Of a DNA stretch of 64,000 nt, positions 3,713 through 60,336 are shown piece by piece. This DNA comes from Phytopythium helicoides. Lineage: Eukaryota > Oomycota > Peronosporomycetes > Pythiales > Pythiaceae. The position numbers were made by a program, and so were the translations under genes. The notes beneath the pieces are model-generated. The model was not told the DNA's origin, did no database searches, and worked only from the letters and a program-made list of their open reading frames with translations. Position 1 is the stretch's first letter, and every line of letters begins with the position of its first letter. The DNA lies in NCBI GenBank assembly GCA_024867545.1, contig JANFNE010000003.1, positions 1,922,001-1,986,000 of the forward strand, written 5' to 3'.

Positions 3713-5262
3713 CCCTCATTCTCATGTTCTTCTTATTCTGCTTCGCGCGCGTGAATGGGTGTCCAAATGGCAGTCAAATGCTGTCGTTGGGTTGCTCTAG
3801 CGGCCTCCATTCTGTTGGCGACAGCTACACGATCTGCGTCAGTCATCCCTTTCAAGCGTCCTATGCTGTGCGAACGCCCAGATCCCATCGACTAATAGGA
3901 GCCGCGTTGCTTCGAAAGGAGTGGAAGTGGGTCTGTCCTCTTCACGTCTGCGAGTGGACTCGGAGCGAGATACCACGTCGTGAGGTGACGGACATTGATA
4001 TAAGCAGCTTCCAGGTCGCGTCACTTGGACTGGAGATGCAGGTGGATCGCCTCCACCATCATACACCCATGCTCGGAGCCACGGCAGCCTTCTCGCCTGC
4101 TTTTCCAGTTCGGAGTCCAGACCGCAGCAGAGCTCGGGCATCCTCCAAGAATCCCATTCCGTCCGTCATTTGACCCATTCTCTCCCTCGACGACCTCGAC
4201 ACTGGTCCCCATCGACCGCCCTCAAGCGGATCTGCCAAGCTCTGGTAAGGTCCAGGCAGCCGCCACCTCCACCTGCTGAGCCCTCGTCGGCTTGAACCCG
4301 CGCTTTCTCGACATGGGTTGACTCCTCCCATTTGGCCAACGACCAGCCCCGCACCTCCCCACTCGCCGCCCCATGGAGCTCGAGCCGCCCGCCGCGCTGC
4401 GGCTGCTGGCTGTGGATAACGTGGCGCGTGCGCTGCTGCTGCTGCTGGACGCGCACGCCGTGGACGCGCTGGCCGAGAGCTTCCAGGCCAGCAACTCGCT
4501 GCGGACGCACACGCGCGACGCGCCACTGTGGGCCGAGCTGGAGCGGGTCCACTTCGGCGCGGCACGGCCGGAGGCGCTGCGCTCGCTGTCGCTGCCTGCG
4601 CGCGCGCGCGGATGGCCGTGGACGGACCCCGCGCGCTCCTGCGGGCCGCTGCGCGACTTTCTGCGGTCGCTGGACGAGCGCGAGGCCTTCGAGCACCGCG
4701 TGCGCGTGGTGCGCGGGGACCTGCGGACGGTGCGCGAGGTGGACGGCGCGCCGATCGACGCCATCGCCTTCCCCACCAACTCGCACCTGACGAACCACTT
4801 CACGGGCGCCGCGGGCGCCGTCTTCGAGCGCGCGGGCAGAGAGCTCGTCAACTTTGTCAACGACCCGCTCTTCCGCGGCCGCAGACCCACGGGATCGGCC
4901 GTCGCCACGCCAGGCTTCAACGCCGGCGTGCGCAAGCTCATCCACTGCGTTGGGCCCAGCATATCCATGGACAACTGCTACCAGCTGCTCGAGATCACTT
5001 ACAGGAACGCCATGAACGCCGTCATGCACGAGGACCTGCACTGCGTGGCGCTAACGTCGATCTCGACGGGTAACTTGGGCGTGCCGGTGAAGGGCGGCGC
5101 GCAGGTCGGGCTGCGCGCGATCCAGAAGTTCATACGGTCCAACGACTGGAGCGGCACCATCGCCATCGTGTGCGTCGACATGCACGTGCACGACGCGTTC
5201 ACCAAGGCGAAGCAGGAGATCCTGGACAACTTCAACATCGAGCCACCGCACCCGACGCACAT
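3080..5262. repeat. Left arm of an inverted segmental duplication
   Basis: This arm matches 13107-15186 in reverse complement. It contains the macro pseudogene, the shared divergent intergenic block and nearly all of the GC-rich macro gene. Similarity stops abruptly inside the macro gene just after the codons for PHPTH. The right arm has lost roughly 85-90 bp of the pseudogene. The spacer of about 7.8 kb holds the expansin and FG-tailed macro genes. Confidence 0.75.
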
Positions 5263-5314
5263 CCGCTGGGTCCGCGGCTTGGACGGCGGGTTTCGCCCAA
5301 ATAACCAGGAGTGA
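4373..5314 (+). CDS. F-box-like N-terminus plus macro-domain protein
   Basis: A 313-residue single-exon protein. Residues 8-62 (RLLAVDNVARALLLLLDA... then LWAELERVHFG) have the spacing of a degenerate F-box: a hydrophobic helix, a small-residue helix, then a W in LW-x-L. Residues 110-290 are a macro domain: RVVRGDLRTVREVDGAPIDAIAFPTN as the first strand and loop, GAAGAVFERAG in place of the usual GGG-V-D-AIHRAAG, GFNAGVRKLIHCVGP, and the phosphate-loop motif SISTGNLGVP. The canonical Asn survives as TN, but the catalytic Gly-Gly-Gly-Val-Asp loop is absent. ADP-ribose binding is therefore more secure than hydrolysis. The C-terminus (RWVRGLDGGFRP) matches the tail of the FG-type relatives. Codons are very GC-rich compared with those relatives. 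A role as an SCF substrate receptor for ADP-ribosylated targets is inference. Confidence 0.75.
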   Translation: MELEPPAALRLLAVDNVARALLLLLDAHAVDALAESFQASNSLRTHTRDAPLWAELERVHFGAARPEALRSLSLPARARGWPWTDPARSCGPLRDFLRSLDEREAFEHRVRVVRGDLRTVREVDGAPIDAIAFPTNSHLTNHFTGAAGAVFERAGRELVNFVNDPLFRGRRPTGSAVATPGFNAGVRKLIHCVGPSISMDNCYQLLEITYRNAMNAVMHEDLHCVALTSISTGNLGVPVKGGAQVGLRAIQKFIRSNDWSGTIAIVCVDMHVHDAFTKAKQEILDNFNIEPPHPTHIRWVRGLDGGFRPNNQE

Positions 5315-9738: not shown

Positions 9739-11016
9739 ATGCCAAAGACCAAGACCAACGCACGAACTACCAGGGGTCAGCGCCGCGCAAACAACTCCCC
9801 ACTCTCCAAACCAAGCAACTCGACCACCGCGACCAAGAAGGACGATGAGAAGCACCAGAAGCTACTGCTGAGGCAGATGGACGCTGCCTCCATCGACAAA
9901 GTGTCCATGACATTCCAGACCAGCCGCACACTAGCTCCGTACGACGCGTTGATGTGGAGTGAGTTGATGCTCAAGCACTTCGGTGCTCCACTCCCACCAA
10001 CTCTGCGCTTCTTGAACGTCCCTGCTCGCGATCGAGGATGGGACTGGACAAATATCAAGCACTCGTGCCAGCAGTTTCGTGACTTCTTGCGTACATACGA
10101 TGAGCGAGAGATGTTTGACAAGTCTGTGCGCGTCGTCCGCGGCGACCTGCGGACGTTCCGGGAAGTGGACGGGACACCAATTGACGGCATCATCTTCCCA
10201 ACCAACGCACACTTGACAAACCCTCACAACGGCGCAGCGGGAGCCGTATTCGAGCGAGCAGGAACAGAGTTGAGCGAGTTTGTCAAGCAACCGCAATTCG
10301 CTTACGCCCATTCCGTTGAATCGGTCGTCACCACACCAGGATTCAACGCGGGTGTGGAGAAGCTAATCCACTGCGTGGGTCCAAGCTTCTCATCTGATTA
10401 CTGCTACCCGCAGCTTGAAGCGACTTACAGGAATGCCATGGGTGCTGTAATGCGCGAGGGTCTTCAGTGTGTCGCATTGACGTCCATCTCAACTGGTAAC
10501 CAAGGAGTGCCAGCAAAGGGAGCCGCACAAGTCGGTCTTCGCGCGATCCAGACGTTTCTGCGGTTGAACAGCGGGTGGCGTGGCACGATCGCTATCATAT
10601 GCGTCGATGTGAATGTGTACGATGCATTCATCCAGACAAAGCAAGACATTCTGTACAAGTTCAATGTGCCTCCTCTGTATCCGAGTCGCGCTCTTTCTGG
10701 CTTCGGAACGGTGTCTACAAATCCGAGTCCATTCGGTGCCGGTTTCACGTTTGGTCAGTCAGCTCCGCAATCAGGCTTCGGCTCTGGATTTGGAGCCTCT
10801 TCGTTCTCCTCTTCAAACTCGACTACATTCTCATTTGGAAATCCGACGCCGTCTTCAACATGGACATCATCATCTGTTAATTCGAAGAGGTACTTTGGAA
10901 GCGGTTTACCAGCCGTGGCTAAACCCTCGAGTCAAGCAACTCGGTTGGCAAAGACATTTAAGCCACAATCACGATGGTTCCGCGGGATCAATGGCTCGCT
11001 CCGACCAAAGAAGTAA
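9739..11016 (+). CDS. Macro-domain protein with FG-repeat (nucleoporin-like) tail, copy B1
   Basis: 425 residues, intact. Residues 1-45 are basic and low-complexity (TKTNARTTRGQRRANNSPLSKPS), probably a nuclear signal. Residues 46-85 retain the end of the F-box-like unit (LMWSELMLKHFGAPLP). Residues 130-310 are the macro domain (GDLRTFREVDGTPIDGIIFPTN, GAAGAVFERAG, GFNAGVEKLIHCVGP, SISTGNQGVPAKGAA). Residues 318-390 form a Ser/Thr-rich linker with seven FG dipeptides at 322, 332, 338, 347, 351, 366 and 386, including TFGQ, SGFGSGFG and SFGNP, as in FG-nucleoporins. The protein ends RWFRGINGSLRPKK, a tail shared with the GC-rich macro gene. Nuclear-pore association is inference. The upstream TGTCATTCCTAAACTT at 9700-9715 may be its initiator. 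Confidence 0.75.
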   Translation: MPKTKTNARTTRGQRRANNSPLSKPSNSTTATKKDDEKHQKLLLRQMDAASIDKVSMTFQTSRTLAPYDALMWSELMLKHFGAPLPPTLRFLNVPARDRGWDWTNIKHSCQQFRDFLRTYDEREMFDKSVRVVRGDLRTFREVDGTPIDGIIFPTNAHLTNPHNGAAGAVFERAGTELSEFVKQPQFAYAHSVESVVTTPGFNAGVEKLIHCVGPSFSSDYCYPQLEATYRNAMGAVMREGLQCVALTSISTGNQGVPAKGAAQVGLRAIQTFLRLNSGWRGTIAIICVDVNVYDAFIQTKQDILYKFNVPPLYPSRALSGFGTVSTNPSPFGAGFTFGQSAPQSGFGSGFGASSFSSSNSTTFSFGNPTPSSTWTSSSVNSKRYFGSGLPAVAKPSSQATRLAKTFKPQSRWFRGINGSLRPKK

Positions 11017-11302: not shown

Positions 11303-12627
11303 ATGGAGGCGCCAACCGAGAGCCAAGCGAAGCGCCAGCGGCTCCCAGAGCGCCCCACGGCCGCCGCGACCGAAGTTGGTACTATTCACAGCGTGCTGGA
11401 CATCGAGACGCTGCTGCTCGCGGTGGTGCGGCTGCTGGATTCGCGCTCGATCGCGAGCTTCGCGGAGGTTTTGGCCGTCAACAAGCAGTGGCGGAGCTGT
11501 CTGCAGCACGAGGCGGTGTGGGCGGATCTGCTGGACGGAGAGATTTGGAGGACGACGAGGGTCTGGAGGTGACGGACCGAGATTTGTGGTGCGAGAAGAT
11601 CTCGTGCGGCTGGCTGACAGCGTTGAAGACAATGAAGACGACGATGAAGAAGAAGAAGAAGAGGAGGAAGAGGATGAACAGCATGCACTTGCTGTTGTGG
11701 CTGCCGGAACTGCCTGCAGGTCGCTGTCGGAGCGGCAGGCGATGGCGGTGGCAGCAGCTGCGGGGACCTTTGATGAGGAGCAGCATCGTACCATGAACGA
11801 CGCGATCGCGCAGCTTGAGACAGCAGGCGAACAGGTCGCTCTCGAGTATTGGAGCTGCCTCCGAGCGTCTATGGCCTAACAGTCTTGCGACTGTAACAAC
11901 GGAGGCGCACAGGATTATGGCTGAAGCCAGAGCTCGAAATCTGGTGTCTACAACCCCGGCTTCTAGTGCGAATCAAACTTCATTGCACCCAGATGCCAGC
12001 GTCATGGTGCTGAGTGCAGCGTGTGACGAGCTAAAGGAATTTCTATTGACGACTGAAGAGTGGAAGCGCTTTTGTGACAATGTTGTGATTATCAAGGGGA
12101 CATCGGGGACCATCACAGAGCTTAACGGACGAGCTATTGACGGCATCGCGTTTCCAACCACTTCATTCCTCTCAAACCCTGGAATCGGCTCAGCAGCAGT
12201 CGTTCATCAGCGTGCTGGAGATCGGTTGGCATCTCATGTTCGTGGACTGAGAGTGCAGTTGGACGTTGGCGAGGTGCATGTAACGCCAGGATTTGACGCC
12301 GGTGTCGACAAGCTCATTCATGTGGTTGGTCCAAGCCGTTTCCAACAACGTTGCTTTGATCTTCTTCAAGTCACGTATACAAACATACTGCGAGCCGCTC
12401 GACGAGAGGGCTTGCAGTGCGTTGCAATGACGTCAGTGTCGACGGGAAACCTTGGTGTTCCTTGTCAAGAGGGAGCAAGAATGGCGCTGCGTGCGATCAA
12501 GCGCTTTCTTGCCGAAGAAAAATGGTCGGGAACGGTCGGTATTGTATGTTACGAGCAGCAAGTGCTCAATGCGTTCACGGAAGAAAAGAAGGCCCTGGTT
12601 GGTGCGTTCAATGTATCTCGGGGTTGA
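11303..12627 (+). pseudogene. F-box plus macro-domain gene, read in three frames
   Basis: Three collinear coding blocks. The first (ATG 11303) gives the clearest F-box of the family: DIETLLLAVVRLLDSRSIASFAEVLAV then NKQWRSCLQHEAVWADLLDGEIW. The second, in another frame from about 11560 to 11880, is an acidic hinge (DNEDDDEEEEEEEEEDEQ) followed by a helical segment. The third frame, to 12627, is a complete macro domain (ELNGRAIDGIAFPTTSF, GSAAVVHQRAGDRL, GFDAGVDKLIHVVGP, SVSTGNLGVPCQEGA). Frame changes fall near 11550 and 11860. Either unrecognised introns or indels could explain this, and no convincing donor/acceptor pair joins all three. It is the closest relative of the two macro pseudogenes at 3.0 and 14.7 kb. 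Confidence 0.65.
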
Positions 12628-15752: not shown

Positions 15753-17031
15753 ATGCCTAAGACCAAGACCAACGCACGAGCTACCAAGCGCCAGCGCCTC
15801 GCAAACAACTCCCCACTCTCCAAGCCCAGCAGCTCGACCATCGCAATCAAGAAGGACGACGAGAAGCAGCAGAAGCTACTGCTGAGGCAGATGGATGCTA
15901 CCTCGATCGACAAATTGTCCATGACATTCCAGACCAGCCGCACACTAGCTCCGTACGACGCGTTGACTGTGGAGTGAGTTGATGCTCAAGCACTTCGGTG
16001 CTCCACTCCCACCAACTCTGCGCTTCTTGAACGTCCCTGCTCGCGATCGAGGATGGAACTGGACAAACATCAAGCACTCGTGCCAGCAGTTTCGCAATTT
16101 CTTGCGTACATACGATGAGCGAGAGATGTTTGACAAGTCTGTGCGCGTCGTCCGCGGCGACCTGCGGACGTTCCGAGAAGTGGACGGGACACCAATTGAC
16201 GGCATCATCTTCCCTACCAACGCACACTTGACAAACCCTCACAACGGCGCAGCGGGAGCCGTATTCGAGCGAGCAGGAACAGAGTTGAGCGAGTTTGTCA
16301 AGCAACCGCAATTCGCTTACGCCCATTCCGTTGAATCGGTCGTCACCACACCAGGATTCAATGCGGGTGTGGAGAAGCTAATCCACTGCGTGGGTCCAAG
16401 CTTCTCATCTGATTACTGCTACCTGCAGCTTGAAGCGACTTACAGGAATGCCATGAGTGCTGTAATGCGCGAGGGTCTTCAGTGTGTCGCATTGACGTCC
16501 ATCTCAACTGGTAACCAAGGAGTGCCAGCAAAGGGAGCTGCACAAGTCGGTCTTCGCGCGATCCAGACGTTTCTGCGATTGAACAGCGGGTGGCGTGGCA
16601 CGATCGCCATCGTATGCGTCGATGCAAATGTGTACGATGCATTCATCCAGGCAAAGCAAGACATTCTGTACAAGTTCAATGTGCCTCCTCTGTATCCGAG
16701 TCGCGCTCTTTCTGGCTTCGGAACTGCGACTACAAATCCGAGTCCGTTCTGTGCCGGTTTCACGTTTGGTCAGTCAGTTCCGCAATCAGGCTTCGGATCT
16801 GGATTTGGTACCTCTTCGTCAACGTTTTCGAGCTCGACTACATTCTCATTTGGAAATCCGACGCCGTCTTCAACATGGACATCATCATCTGTTAATTCGA
16901 AGCGGTACTTTGGAAGCGGTTTACCAGCCGTGGCTAAACCCTCGAGTCAAGCAACTCGGTTGGCAAAGACTTTTAAGCCGCAATCACGATGGTTCCGCGG
17001 GATCAACGGCTCACTTCGACCTAAGAAGTAG
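15753..17031 (+). pseudogene. FG-tailed macro-domain gene, copy B2, one-base frameshift
   Basis: Near-identical to copy B1. A single extra C at about 15966 (GCGTTGACTGTGG against GCGTTGATGTGG in B1) terminates the first frame after APYDALTVE. Reading resumes from 15979 and is intact to 17031, covering the whole macro domain and the FG tail (SGFGSGFG, SFGNP, YFGSG) and ending RWFRGINGSLRPKK. A product initiated at the ATG at 15979 would lack the basic N-terminus but keep the macro domain. An assembly indel is an equally good explanation. Confidence 0.7.
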
Positions 17032-17339: not shown

Positions 17340-18812
17340 TTAGCTGCTGCCGTGGACAGCAGTGTAGTTGTAGTACACCGTGTTCTCGTACTCCGACGAG
17401 CAGTACGGGAACGTCGCGTCGTTATCCGTAGGAGCGAAGAGCGACTTGCCCGTCGTGTATGTCACATAGCAACCGAGGATGGTACAGATCGCGGCAACGA
17501 GGATGCCCGGGATCTTCTCCCAAAGAGGGACCTTGTCCCACGCCTTGTAGTAGTAGAAGATGATCGGGAGCACGATCGAGTTGGCCGTGTTGCACGACGC
17601 ACCAATGAAGTCGCTGAAGTCACCGAAGTGGTCCTTCTCCACGACAGCAAGGATGACAAGCACGATAATGATAGCAAGGCGGAGCAGCGCGTACTTGATA
17701 GCGTTGGCACCCTTGTACTCAGCAGCCTCAATCTCAGCGTCATCGGTGTTACGAGCAGTGTCAGCCATCGACACAACCGACATCTTGGACGAACGGCGCT
17801 CCTTCTCAATGCCGTCAGCAGGAGTAGAGGCGTCCTCGTACGAGATAGCGTTCTCAACATCGTCAGTAGGCTTCTTGTGCATTCCGAGAAGCAGACGCTC
17901 CGAGATGTAGAAGGCCGGGTTGATGATCACAGCGAAACCAATCGTGATGTGCAGCTGCATGAACAGGAACGCGAGCACAACGGCACCCTGGTCCGGAGAG
18001 AAGCCAAGCGCAGTCAGACCGGTGGTGGCATCCGGGTAGATAGTGAAGAGGAGGTTGCCCGAGATCTGGCACCCGACAGCAGAGTAGCCGGTCGAGGCGA
18101 GCGTCAGGAAGAGCACCGAGATGAACGTGAGCGTGGCAAGCACGACACCAGGCATGCGCGTGGGGACGCTGTGCTGACGCTGCACATCCGGGATGACGAT
18201 ACCAGCACCGTAAGCAAGCGCAAGGTTACCAAAAGCGTTCACGACCTGCTGGAACTTGAGGTCCGGGAACGGCACCGACGGGTGACCACGCATGCCGTAC
18301 ATGACGACGGACACGCCAATCACATCCGCGATGATGGTGCCGAGGCATCCAGCGAAAGCAGCACCAGCTCCTTCCTTGAGAGTGGGGATCAAGCAGACCG
18401 GGAGCACCATGACCGCCATGAGGATAATCCAGGTTGACTGGCTGAAGGCACCGGGGAACAGATCATCGAGCAGCGTGCCACCAAGCACGAGGAACACAGC
18501 CGGCACAAGCAGGCAGGTACTGATCTGGGCGATGACGGTGAGCCAGCGGCCCGTGGTGCCCATGCACCACTCGCCCATGTCACCGTAGGTCTTGACACTC
18601 TTGGGGGCCATGAGCATGACCTTGGTGATGCACCAGCCGGCGTAGACGTTGGCAAAGGCCATGAAGAGCAGCGCGATGGAGGCGATGGCAGGTCCCGCTC
18701 GCGAGAAGTTGCCGGGCATACCAAGAGTACCAATGCCGTAGACGCAGCAGAAGATGCTGAAGGCGGCCTTGAGGTCGTCGGCCATGATCCACTTGCGGCC
18801 TTCCTTGGCCAT
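17340..18812 (-). CDS. AAAP-family amino acid permease, copy 1
   Basis: 490 residues from the ATG at 18812 (MAKEGRKWIMADDLKAAF). Upstream codons in frame are rejected because an initiator-like element (ACTCACTTCTCAATCC on the minus strand, near 18885-18870) lies about 60 nt upstream of that ATG. Eleven or so hydrophobic segments are visible. The first carries the family-typical IGTLGMPGNFSRAGP, and a later helix reads AYGAGIVIPDVQRQHS. A cytosolic loop with RRSSKMSVVSMADTA is rich in possible phosphorylation sites. Members of the Aa_trans family move amino acids with protons across plasma or vacuolar membranes; the substrate cannot be read from sequence. Intact. Confidence 0.85.
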   Translation of the reverse strand: MAKEGRKWIMADDLKAAFSIFCCVYGIGTLGMPGNFSRAGPAIASIALLFMAFANVYAGWCITKVMLMAPKSVKTYGDMGEWCMGTTGRWLTVIAQISTCLLVPAVFLVLGGTLLDDLFPGAFSQSTWIILMAVMVLPVCLIPTLKEGAGAAFAGCLGTIIADVIGVSVVMYGMRGHPSVPFPDLKFQQVVNAFGNLALAYGAGIVIPDVQRQHSVPTRMPGVVLATLTFISVLFLTLASTGYSAVGCQISGNLLFTIYPDATTGLTALGFSPDQGAVVLAFLFMQLHITIGFAVIINPAFYISERLLLGMHKKPTDDVENAISYEDASTPADGIEKERRSSKMSVVSMADTARNTDDAEIEAAEYKGANAIKYALLRLAIIIVLVILAVVEKDHFGDFSDFIGASCNTANSIVLPIIFYYYKAWDKVPLWEKIPGILVAAICTILGCYVTYTTGKSLFAPTDNDATFPYCSSEYENTVYYNYTAVHGSS

Positions 18813-53808: not shown

Positions 53809-55285
53809 CTACATATTGCTTAGGGTTGCATCAAGCAGCAGGTTCTCCACGAGTTGTCTTGTAAGCTGCCTCTTCTCGCGCATTGCAGACATGATGAGCT
53901 GCGACAGCATACCAATCTCATAGTGACCTTCAGTCTGATCACGAGATTTTGAGGTCGGCTCGAGAAGGTTCAGAATGGAAGTCGAGTAGACTTGCAACTT
54001 GGTTCCAAAAGTCCCGTCCTGCAACGCACTAGGAGTGATGCGGACCCATGCCTGCCCAATAACTTGAACGGCTGGCGCAGGTCCGGCCATCTCGGTTGTC
54101 ATCCCAGCTATTTCGGATATTATCGAGATCTCATTGTTGACAATATAGCGCTTGAAAGCCTGGTAAACGGTGACAGGTCTGTCAATTATTGGAGATCGAT
54201 GGATCTCCATCTTTGTTAGCACAACGTCGTCGGACTCCGCAACAATCTAGACCACACATCATTAAGTCAGCATATGCCAATCGATCGACAGCAATGCTTG
54301 CAGCCATAACTTACCGACATCGGAAAACTATACACGTTGATTTTCCCTTGGCGAAGTGCTCGCCAAAGCACGCGATTACACATGTCAAAGTCGAACGGAA
54401 GCACTTTGCTCATTTTGTTCTCGATCATGAGGCCGTCATCCGTCGCATACTTGAGTTTGATATCATCCACCTCCGGGCTTTTGTAGTGTAACCCATTAGA
54501 GTTCAAGACACTGTCGAGCAGCGGATGCCGAGAATCAATGCTTTGGACGAGGTCGTGAAACCACTCGCTGTCGGTCTTGGTGATCTGCTCGCCTTTCTGC
54601 CAGTGGTCCTCTTGCAGCTGATCCCACACCTAGAACAGCAACTAATTATCAACCAAATAAGCACAAGCACCTCAATTCTCCAGAAGCTACGTACCTGCGG
54701 CTTGCTCAGCAGCTTTTCGAGGCTTCGCGCCAGCTTGATCTGCGCCTGCACCGACGCGACGAGCTTGGCATTTTCTTTCTCAGCCTTGCTCCTCTCCTCC
54801 CTCTGACTCGCCGCGATGCTCCTCCACAGACTCGTCGAATCCGGATCATATCCACCACCGAGCTCCAAAGAATCTGGCGAGGCCTTGTCGGCGTCAACGT
54901 GCGCCAGCTGACGCTCCTTGATCCTGTCCAGCTCCTCCTGCAGCTCCGAGGCTCGCGCTCTCAAAAACTGCAGCTCCTCCTTCTGCCTCTGCGTGGAGCT
55001 CTTGGGCTTGGTCAGGACCACTGGAGTCGAGACGGACGAGGGTCCAGGCAGAATTGGCTTCAACGTCGCCGATTTGCGCCGCACATGCCGCTGCGTGTCC
55101 CTCGGTAGCTGCGAGTCCAGCAGTCCGTGCGTCGCGCCGTCCTCCACGCCCGCCAGCAGCGCGTCGAGCTCCGAGAAAAAGTCGAGCGCCACGCCGTCGC
55201 TCTCGCCGCTGCCTTCGCCTTGCGTTTCGCTAGTTGCGGCGTCCTGGGCGTCCTGCCGTCGTCGCTTGCTGCCGAGCGGTGCCAT
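53809..55285 (-). CDS. M96-like bZIP/START-like protein, intact three-exon gene
   Basis: 447 residues from exons 55285-54695, 54629-54315 and 54246-53809, all joined in phase 0 by GTACGT/TTCTAG and GTAAGT/GTCTAG introns. An acidic N-terminus (FFSELDALLAGVED, residues 36-49) precedes the bZIP-like SSTQRQKEELQFLRARASEL (97-116). The second coil is SLWRSIAASQREERSKAEKE (residues 152-171) and KLARSLEKLL. The START-like half includes MSKVLPFDFDMCNRVLWRAL, AWVRITP and the C-terminal LTRQLVENLLLDATLS. The clean structure makes it the best local reference for judging the broken members. DNA-binding residues of canonical bZIP factors are not present, so DNA binding is unproven. Confidence 0.82.
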
Positions 55286-55619
55286 GCCGAGGAAGAGGTG
55301 AGACCGAGTGTGCGTGCTGCGGTGAGACGGAGGCGACTCGTTCGTTGTGAACGTTCTGCAAAAGTATCGGTTTGTATTGGAGTATGAATGGAACAGTCAT
55401 TCTGTACGTCATTTTCGCACATTCTGAAAAAATATCCTGTTATAGTGGAGTATATATAGTATGGTTCTTCTGGATGTATTTGAAAAAGTTGACAATGAGA
55501 TTGATGACGCCAAATGGACATGAACGCATCACTCCATGTTGGTTACTAGAAAGTTACAGCCGAGCTGATGTGAGCACTACGTTCCGTGAAGGAGCTTCCT
55601 ACATCGAACGTCGATACTA
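55286..55619. other. Intergenic, no gene recognised
   Basis: AT-richer spacer between the M96-like gene and the 3' side of the Fanzor locus. The predicted guide-RNA 3' end, and hence any native guide, would fall at its right edge. Confidence 0.35.
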
Positions 55620-55800
55620 GACCCAGCGTGTAGCTCCTAGCATTACCGGCTTCCTCGTTTTTCGTCGTGAGAGGAACCGGCGGTCAACAACGCTCCGGAG
55701 AGTCGCCCTCCGCCCTGTTTCAAGGACAGAGCCACCCGTTGTCGGAGTACACCCCGACGGTGGATGGGCTGAGGATGGGTGAATTCAGGGTAGGTCTGGT
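55620..55800 (-). ncRNA. Candidate guide-RNA (omega/fRNA-like) scaffold of the Fanzor gene
   Basis: Overlaps the last codons and 3' flank of the nuclease gene on the same strand, the usual place of TnpB-family guide RNAs. Three foldable parts are visible. One is a stem 55741-55745 with 55754-55758, extended after a bulge by 55732-55736 with 55759-55763. The second is a long-range GGCGG/CCGCC pairing that encloses CTCTCCGGAG. The third is a strong hairpin 55646-55680 pairing CCGG-TTCCTC with GAGGAA-(G)-CCGG. The GGTTCCTCT...GAGGAAGCC design is strikingly like the 3' stem of many prokaryotic TnpB omega RNAs, as I recall them. The scaffold probably ends near 55625-55640, with the guide reading into flanking DNA. 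Transcription is not shown. Confidence 0.6.
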
Positions 55801-57875
55801 TCGCTTTCTTGATCGTGTTGCGCTGGACGCTGGAGCCTTGACGGTCGCTCGTTCCCCTCAAGCATGCTCACCAATATGCCTCGAATGTTCTTTGCAGCAT
55901 TCACGTCGCGGTCGACCGAACTGCCACAACCTCCATGCCTAGTCAGACAGTGAAGCACCTTGTGCACTGGCACGTTTCGTCGAGAGCCGTCGCGAAACAC
56001 TCGCATGACACGCTGATTCTCCATGTGGCTCGTAGCCTCACAGTCGTGGTGCACTTTGCTGGTCAGATACTCATCAATCACGACCACCTCGCAGTGTCGA
56101 GCAAGCTTGCGAGCAAACTCCTTAACTGGGCCAGCAACACACCCTTTGATGATACCTTGTCCACGAGTACCTGAGTCTCCAAACCCGACGATTGTTTTGC
56201 TGCCTGGAGCACCCGCGAGCTCAAAACAGGCACGGTCAAGCTGCGCAGTGCGAAGCTTGTATCGTCGAAACTTCAGTTTCCTAAAGAATGGGTCCATTAG
56301 ATCTTGCAGGAGTCGTGGCCCGTGATCAAACCAGTACGCCACGTGCTTCTTGAACAGGTCCAAAGAAGCGGTCTTTTTCGACTCAGTCCTACGAAGCAGC
56401 TGCTGAACAACCGGTTGCTTAGCTATGCGATGCCTCGACTTGCGGTTCGACCGCGTGTATCCACTCGCTCTGTGAAAGTCGGACGTTCGAAAGCGAAGCG
56501 CTGTCTCCTCTTGGTTGACCGCCATGATGAAGTCGGTCCGACCGGGGTCGATCCCCCACACGGTAGAGTAGTCGTCCATCCTCCCCTTTGGCCACGTTGG
56601 ACAGGGAAATCCCAGAGCGTCTGATGTCTGCTTTTCTTTGTCCTCGCTGTCAGCACCGCTCGTCTTCACCCTCTTCCTAGGCTTCTTGGTCTTTCGTCGC
56701 TTCCGCTTGCTGCTGCACGGTCGATCCATGTGTACACTCACACCAAACCCATCGGTAGAAATCTCACGATGAAATGAGCCTTTGATCTTGTCCACGTGAA
56801 AAAACTTACGCCACCACAAGTCACTCATCGCGATCCATGGGGCATCGTCTTTTAGGCTTTCTTCGAGAGTCCATTCCCTGCCTTCGTACTCAACAGTCAG
56901 TGTCCTATCTACCAGCAAGCTGCGGCGAAGAAGGGAGCGCAAGCCCGTCGAATCGACCTTGCAGTATGAGCAGCCATAGCCATTCTTGGTAGGAAGCAAG
57001 CAAAACTGACGCTTCATCTTGTAGCCAGGCTGATCTTTGTTCGCAATGTTGCACTCCTCGGCGTACAGCAGGAACTCGTAGAAGAGCTTCAGCATGAGAT
57101 GTGGAGCCCAGTTGACCTTGCCGTTAGGCTTGCGCGGCACCTTTGCGTGAAGGTAAACAGCTGCGGACTCAATCACTTGTGGTCGTCCCCATTGTTCCTC
57201 CATGAAGCCGTCCGAAAGCTGACTCTCGATGTCAGGAGAGAAGACCAAGTTCACAATCTTGTGGGCTTCTTGTGGAGTTGCCCCAAAGCAATCAATCACA
57301 TACGTTCGCAGTCGCTTGGCAAAATTCGCGACTATAGAGTTCTGCGCATTCGTCGCCATTGATTTTGCCGCAGCCTGGAACCACCCCTGATTGAGATGAG
57401 TAGTGTTTGCTGGCTTTCTGGTCCCTCTCATTGCATTGAACTCGTATGCAGCAGTTGCCAGCTCATCGTCTGCAACTTGGCGCTTAGGATTAGTGACGTA
57501 ACTCAGGCATTTTTGGTAGAATGGTGCGTTCAACTCGCGAAGTGGTCTGTCATCCTTTAGTTGCCGTAGTGCGTAGAGGTTGGCAAGCAGATATGCCTCT
57601 GCCATTGCGCGGTTGACCTCGAGAATACATTCCTCCCACGCAAGTAGGGCCCCCTCCGGCTTTATGAACTGCTGAAGTGTCTTCTTCACTACGAAGAAGT
57701 CTAGCGTCTTGTTGCGGGCGATGCGCTCCTTGATATCAGGGCGCTTGCCTCGCACTTGTGGTGGCTCTGGTTGCTGGTTTAGTGGTGAGCTGGGGCCGTT
57801 CGTAGCACGTGGTACCTTCGCCGCCCTGGGAGGCCCAGGCGGCGGCTTGTCAGGGGGAAGCCGCTTCTTCCCCAT
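55785..57875 (-). CDS. Fanzor-type RNA-guided endonuclease (TnpB/OMEGA relative)
   Basis: Intronless. ATG at 57875 (MGKKRLPPDKPPPGPPRAAK) is preferred over the in-frame ATG at 58013; the product is 696 residues. Numbered from the upstream ATG, RuvC-I is WGIDPGRTDFIMAV (Asp489, 56549-56547), RuvC-II is VVVIDEYLTSK (Glu648, 56072-56070) and RuvC-III is SSVDRDVNAAKNI (Asp703, 55907-55905). The triad is therefore complete. The zinc-knuckle region between II and III reads TSKVHHDC ... HCLTRHGGCG, where one expected Cys appears to be His. A Cys pair (GYGCSYCKVD) lies near residue 350. A basic block (KRKRRKTKKPRKRVK, 436-450) just before RuvC-I looks like a nuclear signal. Family members cut DNA guided by an RNA from their own 3' end. 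Neighbours are M96-like genes, suggesting an inserted element. Confidence 0.85.
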   Translation of the reverse strand: MGKKRLPPDKPPPGPPRAAKVPRATNGPSSPLNQQPEPPQVRGKRPDIKERIARNKTLDFFVVKKTLQQFIKPEGALLAWEECILEVNRAMAEAYLLANLYALRQLKDDRPLRELNAPFYQKCLSYVTNPKRQVADDELATAAYEFNAMRGTRKPANTTHLNQGWFQAAAKSMATNAQNSIVANFAKRLRTYVIDCFGATPQEAHKIVNLVFSPDIESQLSDGFMEEQWGRPQVIESAAVYLHAKVPRKPNGKVNWAPHLMLKLFYEFLLYAEECNIANKDQPGYKMKRQFCLLPTKNGYGCSYCKVDSTGLRSLLRRSLLVDRTLTVEYEGREWTLEESLKDDAPWIAMSDLWWRKFFHVDKIKGSFHREISTDGFGVSVHMDRPCSSKRKRRKTKKPRKRVKTSGADSEDKEKQTSDALGFPCPTWPKGRMDDYSTVWGIDPGRTDFIMAVNQEETALRFRTSDFHRASGYTRSNRKSRHRIAKQPVVQQLLRRTESKKTASLDLFKKHVAYWFDHGPRLLQDLMDPFFRKLKFRRYKLRTAQLDRACFELAGAPGSKTIVGFGDSGTRGQGIIKGCVAGPVKEFARKLARHCEVVVIDEYLTSKVHHDCEATSHMENQRVMRVFRDGSRRNVPVHKVLHCLTRHGGCGSSVDRDVNAAKNIRGILVSMLEGNERPSRLQRPAQHDQESEPDLP

Positions 57876-58078
57876 GGTCGCCGAACAATTTCTGCTGTGC
57901 CAACGACGACCTCCAGATCGCATGAGCCACCCGTTGGCTCGTCGCGTCCCGATGTTGGCACACTCTCGAAAATCCAACATGTCATCCACGACGCGACCAA
58001 TGAGCTCTCGCAAATCAAGTTGAAGCTGTCTGCGTCGATAACTGATTTAAGGTGTTATTTTGATCAATAGTAGCAGAC

Positions 58079-58389
58079 AGACACGCACTGGCCACACCTC
58101 TTTGGCTACTGTAGTTTTTTCTTCATATAGTTGTGAACTAGCCGAGCGTCGCCCGCTTCGCGGGCGATCAATAAAAAAAGGCCACAGAGAGCCTACAGGT
58201 TAAGCCACAGAGGGGAGCGCGGTGGCCACTCGCTTCGCTTGGAGCGGCGCCGGTGCGCCGCAAGAACGCTATCATAAAGAACCGGTAACTGATTTAACAT
58301 AAATTATAGCCAATAATATGATAGTACCACTGTGACAAAAACGCTTCCAGACACACACGCAGACACGCACTGGCCACACCTCTTTGGCT
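58079..58389. repeat. 29-bp direct repeat and fold-backs 5' of the Fanzor gene
   Basis: A 29-bp sequence (AGACACGCACTGGCCACACC then TCTTTGGCT) is present at 58079-58107 and 58361-58389. Between the copies are two strong hairpins: 58149-58167 (TCGCCCGC-TTC-GCGGGCGA) and 58244-58261 (GCGGCGC-CGGT-GCGCCGC). AACTGATTTAA also precedes both repeats, at 58039 and 58286, so a longer flank may be duplicated around a 250-bp insert. This could be the left end of the Fanzor element or a separate small fold-back element. Confidence 0.65.
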
Positions 58390-58479
58390 TAGTTTCTTGT
58401 TAGATACTAGGTGCATGTCAATTGCGCGAGTTTCCACAACACAGCGGCACCAACTCCCTACTGTACGGTGCAACCTGGT

Positions 58480-59873: not shown

Positions 59874-60336
59874 AGCTGCAACAGGGCAAATGAAGCAATT
59901 ATAAACAGTAAACCGCCTTGCCTCGAACTACTGTAGCGGTGTCAATCACTCGATCAGTCGTTCAGAAGTTTCAGCTTTCTCTTTAACACCTTGGTTCCCA
60001 ACGTCGTATCTTCCGACATCAATAAACGGACCGCAAGTGATGCAGCCTCTGCATGATACGAAGTGAAACGAACGTTGCTCACACATGTAGTCCTTGGAGC
60101 CCAGCGCACCAAGAGGAGTGTCTCGGCGACTCAACGGACACTACACTACTCGACTGGATTTCCTCGGTTGCGTAGAAGGCTTGTCGAGAGTTCATTGGTT
60201 GCGTCGTGGATGCCAACATGCCAACGCACAGTATTCGGATCTACTTCATTCTCACAGGCTTTACATGTCTAGTCCATGAAAGTTGCCAAAGATTTTTTTT
60301 ACGTATACGCATTTACTTCACCTAAGACCACATTCA
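59874..60336. other. Intergenic, no gene recognised
   Basis: Spacer between two same-strand M96-like genes. No coding or RNA signal was seen. Confidence 0.3.

Follow-up and report, generated by a model that had tools for sequence, protein, structure and literature searches.

The closest described relatives of the locus analyzed here are Fanzor1 proteins and the transposons that carry them, and for comparison we drew on portions of four papers (PMC3627910; PMC10711439, NAR 2023; PMC10432273, Nature 2023; PMC11423790, Cell 2024). Fanzor1 is listed in Phytophthora sojae, P. capsici, P. ramorum, Pythium ultimum, and Albugo laibachii, and the presence of a Fanzor in an oomycete is thus already known (PMC3627910). 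Also in print are Fanzor1 on Helitron2 elements and the proposal that it acts in TnpB-like fashion alongside HUH-type transposons (PMC3627910, PMC10432273). The parallel with TnpB of IS605 was drawn earlier in the paper that established Fanzor activity, which states that the role of Fanzor for host or transposon is unknown (PMC10432273). Here we describe a Fanzor1 gene in a 64,000-nucleotide (nt) stretch of Phytopythium helicoides DNA, hereafter the window (GCA_024867545.1, contig JANFNE010000003.1, positions 1,922,001 to 1,986,000, forward strand).

We consider it probable that this Fanzor1, an RNA-guided DNA endonuclease, is the cargo of a non-autonomous HUH-type Helitron, and that the nuclease aids the spread of the element by way of an omegaRNA. 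Neither the Helitron nor the identity of the 3' untranslated region (3' UTR) as a probable omegaRNA had featured in an earlier note on this DNA. Our literature search, incomplete in its coverage, found no Fanzor1 on canonical Helitron termini and no oomycete duplication pattern of the kind described below. The features are as follows.

55546..58136, minus strand: Fanzor-carrying non-autonomous Helitron, 2591 bp; 5' edge TC at 58136-58135, inferred.
55785..57875, minus strand: Fanzor1 gene, intact, 696 residues; RuvC D443 / E602 / D657, DPG motif, zinc ligands H609-C612-C643-C650.
55546..55784, minus strand: 3' UTR, probable omegaRNA scaffold, terminating exactly at the Helitron 3' end.
55639..55685, minus strand: most conserved omegaRNA hairpin, 11 pairs, shared by 15 of the 17 distinct sequences recovered.
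55546..55572, minus strand: Helitron 3' terminus, a 4-bp hairpin and 11 nt ending CTAG, then host T.
58138..58404, minus strand: mini-Helitron, 267 bp; 5' TC preceded by A, 8-bp 3' hairpin, then 11 nt ending CTAG.

The gene comprises 696 uninterrupted codons on the minus strand, from an ATG at 57875 to a stop at 55785, in agreement with the unbroken, full-length Fanzor frame that the earlier note had described. The window protein begins MGKKRLPPDK, and because its relatives P0001-P0003 begin alike at the same place (MRGQKRLPPDK, MRGKKRFPPDK, and MLGKKRLPPDK), this ATG is the likely start. The protein matches PF07282 (TNB zinc site) at 31.1 bits against a cut-off of 26.3. A single-sequence search of the PDB gave no match at E up to 1, matches coming from the profile search alone, and the overall fold is nearest solved Fanzor1 rather than Fanzor2 or TnpB, where the earlier note had asked whether an unrelated transposase family might match best. 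The window protein resembles SpuFz1 of Spizellomyces punctatus (PDB 8gkh, 9ceu-9cez; PMC10432273) in its full-length fold, its profile, and the places of its D-E-D triad, which aligns to D383/E541/D606, although the two are only 16-17% identical over structural alignments.

The D-E-D triad that the earlier note had placed at Asp489, Glu648, and Asp703 is present, but its residues are D443, E602, and D657 when counted from the ATG at 57875; the earlier numbers are all higher by 46, as if counting had begun at a TTG at 58013. The three RuvC contexts it named are likewise found (IDPG at residues 442-445, DEYLTSK, and RDVNAAKN), except that the glutamate lies outside the canonical RuvC-II place: E602 is followed by YLTSKV and then H609, the rearranged (“alternative”) position six residues ahead of the zinc knuckle. 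In an alignment of 50 sequences, comprising the window protein and 49 of the 63 homologs found, and counting only sequences with a letter at the site, the first aspartate is retained in 46/48, the glutamate in 46/48, and the second aspartate in 41/46. H609, C612, C643, and C650 form a set of four spaced candidate zinc ligands. The assignment as a full-length Fanzor1 with its triad in the Fanzor arrangement is supported, catalytic competence is likely as judged from sequence, and the gene is real, intact, and probably functional. The named relatives among ten matches are all oomycete (P. citrophthora 53%, Nothophytophthora 43-50%, and P. nicotianae 48%), which fits the oomycete genome of the earlier note. 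Pattern-based scans of prokaryote and viral contigs found no relative; a viral source is conceivable.

The vehicle is defined by its ends. Comparison of copies elsewhere in the genome, from a search in which 64 of 271 candidates were scored, reveals a sharp 3' end at 55546. In the 14 copies whose 3' end is recognizable the next base is T in all 14 and the base after that A in 13, with an exact CTAG in 12; the CTAG of the window copy lies at 55549-55546. Related 5' ends begin with TC in 12/12 cases, preceded by A at 11/12 junctions. In each of the four 3' ends that were folded, which are of three kinds, a hairpin stops exactly 11 nt short of the terminus; its stem is 4 bp long in three of them. 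Direct duplications are found in 0/6 copies with an intact 5' end (locus L039 being equivocal). In our reading of these sequences, the termini of the Fanzor element are those of a canonical Helitron, which starts with TC, ends with a hairpin and CTAG, and inserts between A and T with no duplication of the target. A related copy on contig C12 is 2573 bp long. The mini-Helitron adjoins the 5' edge of the Fanzor Helitron, head to tail, and its pair of termini also occurs 2.55 kb apart on C12, as far as the ends alone were compared. Contig C55 has a 5' end with 98% identity over 80 bases and, 3.8 kb inward from it, a RepHel frame; a RepHel partner acting in trans is therefore plausible. The assembly holds 33 PF14214 (RepHel) matches of 27 to 188 bits, with open frames of up to 2277 residues; it is Helitron-rich, and some of these Helitrons are perhaps active.

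These termini set the element apart from the nearest described Fanzor vehicles. The Fanzor1 families listed for Pythium ultimum and Phytophthora (Bao and Jurka 2013) share host group and protein family with the window Fanzor, but those of Pythium are assigned to the mariner type, with terminal inverted repeats (TIRs) (PMC3627910), and Spu-1, the element of SpuFz1, has 33-bp TIRs and putative TA duplications; the covered parts of Bao and Jurka 2013 contain no Helitron vehicle for oomycete Fanzors. Could the window element be a mariner-like TIR transposon with TA duplications, as for the Pythium Fanzors of 2013? The TA that follows the 3' end in 13/14 copies would suit such a vehicle, as would a short imperfect inverted likeness of the two ends (an AGAAA motif). 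The left flank, however, is TA in some copies only, CA and AA occurring too, and the six copies with intact 5' ends show no duplication, while the TC start, the CTAG end, and the hairpin at fixed distance fit Helitrons and the 5' end is common to the RepHel-bearing locus. We regard a TIR vehicle as very improbable.

The second arm of the proposal is the 3' UTR. As in SpuFz1, the RNA region lies between the stop codon and the right end of the element (PMC10432273), and TnpB of IS200/IS605 likewise joins an HUH-type transposon to a nuclease guided by an RNA that stops at the right end of the element. The closing 243 nt of the Helitron fold better than shuffled sequences (z -2.73, 2/200 as good), as do the last 95 nt of the window UTR (z -2.82); a 98-nt core alone and two pieces of L065 fold within chance (z -1.40, -0.36, and -0.57). 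The most conserved hairpin was counted over 15 of 17 distinct sequences, omitting L056 and L061, whose copies begin inside it. Of its cells 90.9% are paired, a value reached by 0/500 shuffles, versions slid along the alignment reaching at most 56.1%, and one pair changes on both sides, being C-G in ten sequences and U-A in five. Among nine copies compared, the 3' region is more similar to that of the window than the coding sequence is in five (L041, L042, L043, L044, and L047; for example, 81.3 versus 67.3% and 87.1 versus 80.0%). Three short loci, L051, L052, and L067 (854-1166 bp), keep both ends and the RNA region and are too short for the gene, and resemble the omegaRNA-only “ghost” loci of Spizellomyces (PMC10432273). 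An Rfam search returned no family and one chance match. An RNAalifold consensus of the whole 3' region over both subfamilies was weak and was discarded. The 3' UTR is a probable omegaRNA, whose guide would come from the adjoining 15-20 nt of host sequence (about 55526-55545). In the left flank, nothing is nearly constant as an adjacent motif except A at -1, which may reflect Helitron preference instead.

The element appears to have moved recently. The C12 copy is 98.3% identical to that of the window over 2555 bases and differs at ten residues, with a nonsynonymous divergence (dN) of 0.0065, a synonymous divergence (dS) of 0.018, and dN/dS of 0.36. Where the earlier note had proposed recent arrival or selection, this near-identical copy on a second contig supports recent activity, whereas selection on the pair is weakly supported; we take the element to have been in recent and possibly continuing use. 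The window gene might instead be a dying copy, intact through recency alone, with expression or activity gone. Five closer relatives carry in-frame stops (L012, L013, L014, L017, and L021), others are partial, and two full-length copies alone are intact among the candidates scored, all of which speaks for such decay. Set against this, the two intact proteins are 99% identical on two contigs, and dN is below dS, on few changes. We think a dying copy doubtful.

A sister family in the same genome, family B, encodes a 659-residue protein 38% identical to that of the window and accounts for about 52 rows among the candidates scored, 38 of them without a stop, a count taken from its C-terminal matches. 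Of 17 loci fetched, 11 are complete copies of equal length, and dN/dS is 0.22 over 55 pairs. At the 5' end there is a palindrome, GCCGGGGTACCCGGC (two loci), and a sequence like it lies close to the 3' end; some copies, such as L028 and L031, are 5'-truncated. These ends look Helitron2-like, and family B thereby resembles the Helitron2 kind of CRe-1, -2, and -3 of Chlamydomonas, in which Fanzor1 is, as in the window, the cargo of a non-autonomous Helitron (PMC3627910). CRe ends are those of Helitron2 (a 5' hairpin, asymmetric repeats, and a T-rich target), in contrast to the window kind, with its TC start, its hairpin and CTAG end, and its target between A and TA. Two Fanzor1 lineages thus appear to occupy two Helitron types within one genome. 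At locus L075 (C63:10350-10680), a palindrome unites the 3' hairpin of the Fanzor Helitron with an inverted copy and ends in GCTAGCAATG, which resembles the 3' end of family B; a terminus was possibly shared or exchanged between the two types. One relative of the sister family, P0030, is filed under an archaeal metagenome bin, an assignment that may be wrong.

The existence of two lineages bears on the rival idea that a Helitron captured Fanzor as an accidental passenger, the nuclease being irrelevant to the spread of the element. Helitrons are gene catchers, known to capture genes, and an identical 5' end is found in Helitrons that lack Fanzor (the mini-Helitron of the window and the C12 element), both of which suit a passenger. 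Accident accounts poorly, however, for an omegaRNA-like 3' UTR that stops exactly at the Helitron terminus, the arrangement that a guide RNA requires, for two Fanzor lineages, 38% alike, on two Helitron types, and for the low dN/dS of the sister family. We judge the passenger explanation unlikely.

We therefore return to a nuclease that serves its Helitron, for which the following sequence of steps can be envisaged. RepHel supplied from elsewhere in the genome would insert the element at sites between A and TA, as the termini suggest. The 3' UTR, whose position and conservation are described above, would be transcribed to yield omegaRNA, with a scaffold that ends with the Helitron terminal hairpin and CTAG, and the first 15-20 nt of host DNA past the Helitron end would serve as guide. 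By analogy with TnpB, the nuclease would cut the unoccupied site on the sister or homologous chromosome, with the A-ending left flank as adjacent motif, and repair of the cut would copy the element in.

A number of observations weigh against the proposal that an active Fanzor1 and its omegaRNA travel on a canonical Helitron. At the 5' edge of the window element the first 30 nt are diverged and T rather than A precedes TC, so that the TC at 58136-58135 is placed by its position and its diverged likeness. The exceptional 5' junction, G before TC on C55, directly follows the CTAG of another Helitron, and a genome match on C63 reads CTAG followed by CA, but within a palindrome having a different end. 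Two of the four 3' hairpins alone fold no better than shuffles (L065, 31/200; L053, 17/200). Empty sites sought for the window copy, L040, L067, and L039 were found at none of the four loci, the searches returning solely the loci's own flanks, with two extra partial matches at 76% for L040. The C55 RepHel element is known by its 5' end alone. The first zinc ligand is His in the window protein, as it is in 36 of the 47 aligned sequences that have a letter at this site, where SpuFz1 has Cys and the Fanzor1 motif of 2013 is written with all four ligands Cys (Bao and Jurka 2013, PMC3627910); the all-Cys motif seems too strict for the clade of the window Fanzor. For the RNA, the 3' region is equal to or below the coding sequence in two of the nine copies, the close copies L039 and L040, and was not found in two more (L045 and L046), and in three of the five favorable cases the alignment spans 50-59 nt, local matches favoring the best part. 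The number of pair types in the hairpin equals that of shuffles (407/500 reach it), and 33/500 shuffles reach the same number of pairs with double changes. Finally, the dN/dS of 0.36 rests on 19 differences.

Some copies are truncated at the 5' end, and a number of these carry a distinct signature. We scored 14 loci, eight 5'-truncated with an intact 3' end and six with an intact 5' end, the latter including the internally deleted L051, L052, and L067. Excluded were L066 (5' end unlocated), L076 (3' end degenerate), and L075 (palindrome with another end), as well as L055, L058, L059, L060/L042, L063, L064/L044, and L077, which have no intact 3' end of the relevant kind. In five of the eight truncated copies a direct duplication of 9-14 bp begins exactly at the 3' junction, and its left duplicate ends no more than 4 nt from the start of element homology. 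The matches are 12/12 (L053), 13/14 (L056), 9/9 (L062), 12/12 (L065), and 8/9 (L074), scores reached by 0, 0, 0.05, 0, and 0.3%, respectively, of 2000 control flanks beginning with TA. A weak match at L039 (10 nt, 2 mismatches, P 0.045) was scored as no duplication. The five duplication-flanked copies are on contigs C17, C46, C1, C4, and C74. A precedes all five left duplicates, giving the same A-TA site as at other insertions. Among 14 family B copies scanned, no duplication at the 3' junction exceeds chance length, most of their 5' ends lying outside the stretch fetched.

The same signature is described for CRe elements, whose 3' ends are intact and whose 5'-truncated copies are flanked by duplications of mostly 7-19 bp (PMC3627910). 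In Chlamydomonas these occur at about 70, 57, and 10% of loci in three Fanzor-Helitron families and in 1/200 copies of a Fanzor-less Helitron; Bao and Jurka could not separate Fanzor from element length as the cause (PMC3627910). A tentative explanation is that duplication-flanked, 5'-truncated copies are scars that Fanzor homing leaves when it is not completed. With the right flank as guide, the nuclease would cut the empty allele some 9-14 nt inside this flank; the DNA end on the right would then copy the element leftwards from its 3' end, with the occupied chromosome as template, until copying breaks off and the newly made end becomes joined to the break end on the left. The resulting locus would contain, in order, the left flank, N nt of the right flank, the element with its 5' part missing and its 3' end exact, and then the right flank in full, so that the length of the duplication equals the cutting offset. 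Such scars would explain why the duplications begin exactly at the Helitron 3' junction, why they are confined here to 5'-truncated copies, why they occur in Fanzor elements on two Helitron types (the window kind and that of Chlamydomonas), and why they are rare in the Fanzor-less Chlamydomonas Helitron. Against homing stand the three of eight truncated copies without a duplication, element length as another possible cause, and the 44-443 bp of some Chlamydomonas duplications (PMC3627910). Given the small numbers, we regard the explanation as less likely than not, but the pattern deserves a direct test.

The genome holds further Fanzor-like groups. Loci L001-L008 (C79, C70, C1, C32, and C68) belong to another Fanzor/TnpB group, with PF07282 matches of 68-81 bits, frames of 412-761 residues, and CxxC zinc knuckles in seven of the eight; they are possibly Fanzor2-like. 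At C58:205515-238498, five PF07282 matches of 34.4-34.9 bits lie within ~33 kb, in frames of 713-808 residues, with others at C90:502806 and on C22, C47, and C6; these are perhaps a further Fanzor lineage, outside the scored rows of the copy search.

Around the element, 20 neighboring open reading frames (ORFs) were scanned against Pfam. Recent arrival or selection had been argued in the earlier note from nearly every neighboring multicopy gene being broken, an argument that we reject for the neighbors scanned. Two amino-acid-transporter ORFs (490 and 493 residues) span nearly the whole Pfam model and a third is partial; the three, at 17340, 22277, and 27745, lie on the strand opposite to a local family of four plus-strand ORFs with one nearly complete Macro domain each (4373-5314, 9739-11016, 11917-12627, and 15982-17031). 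The minus-strand ORF 54503-55285 has no Pfam match, and since its start lies ~260 bp past the Helitron 3' end on the same strand, the Fanzor Helitron sits in its upstream region. Positions 60178-60218 (with weaker pieces over 60006-60217) resemble sequence directly upstream of the Fanzor ATG and may be what is left of another copy, at a distance of 2 kb.

With a Fanzor on a canonical Helitron, an RNA-guided nuclease and an HUH transposon would be paired in eukaryotes as TnpB and IS605 are in bacteria, and the last part of the omegaRNA would be the Helitron's own terminal hairpin. If homing scars are real, they would give Fanzor a visible biological role that can be read from genomes. The question of that role would then become testable in population genomes, where scar length would give the cutting offset and scars would be expected at sites that hold full-length elements in other isolates.
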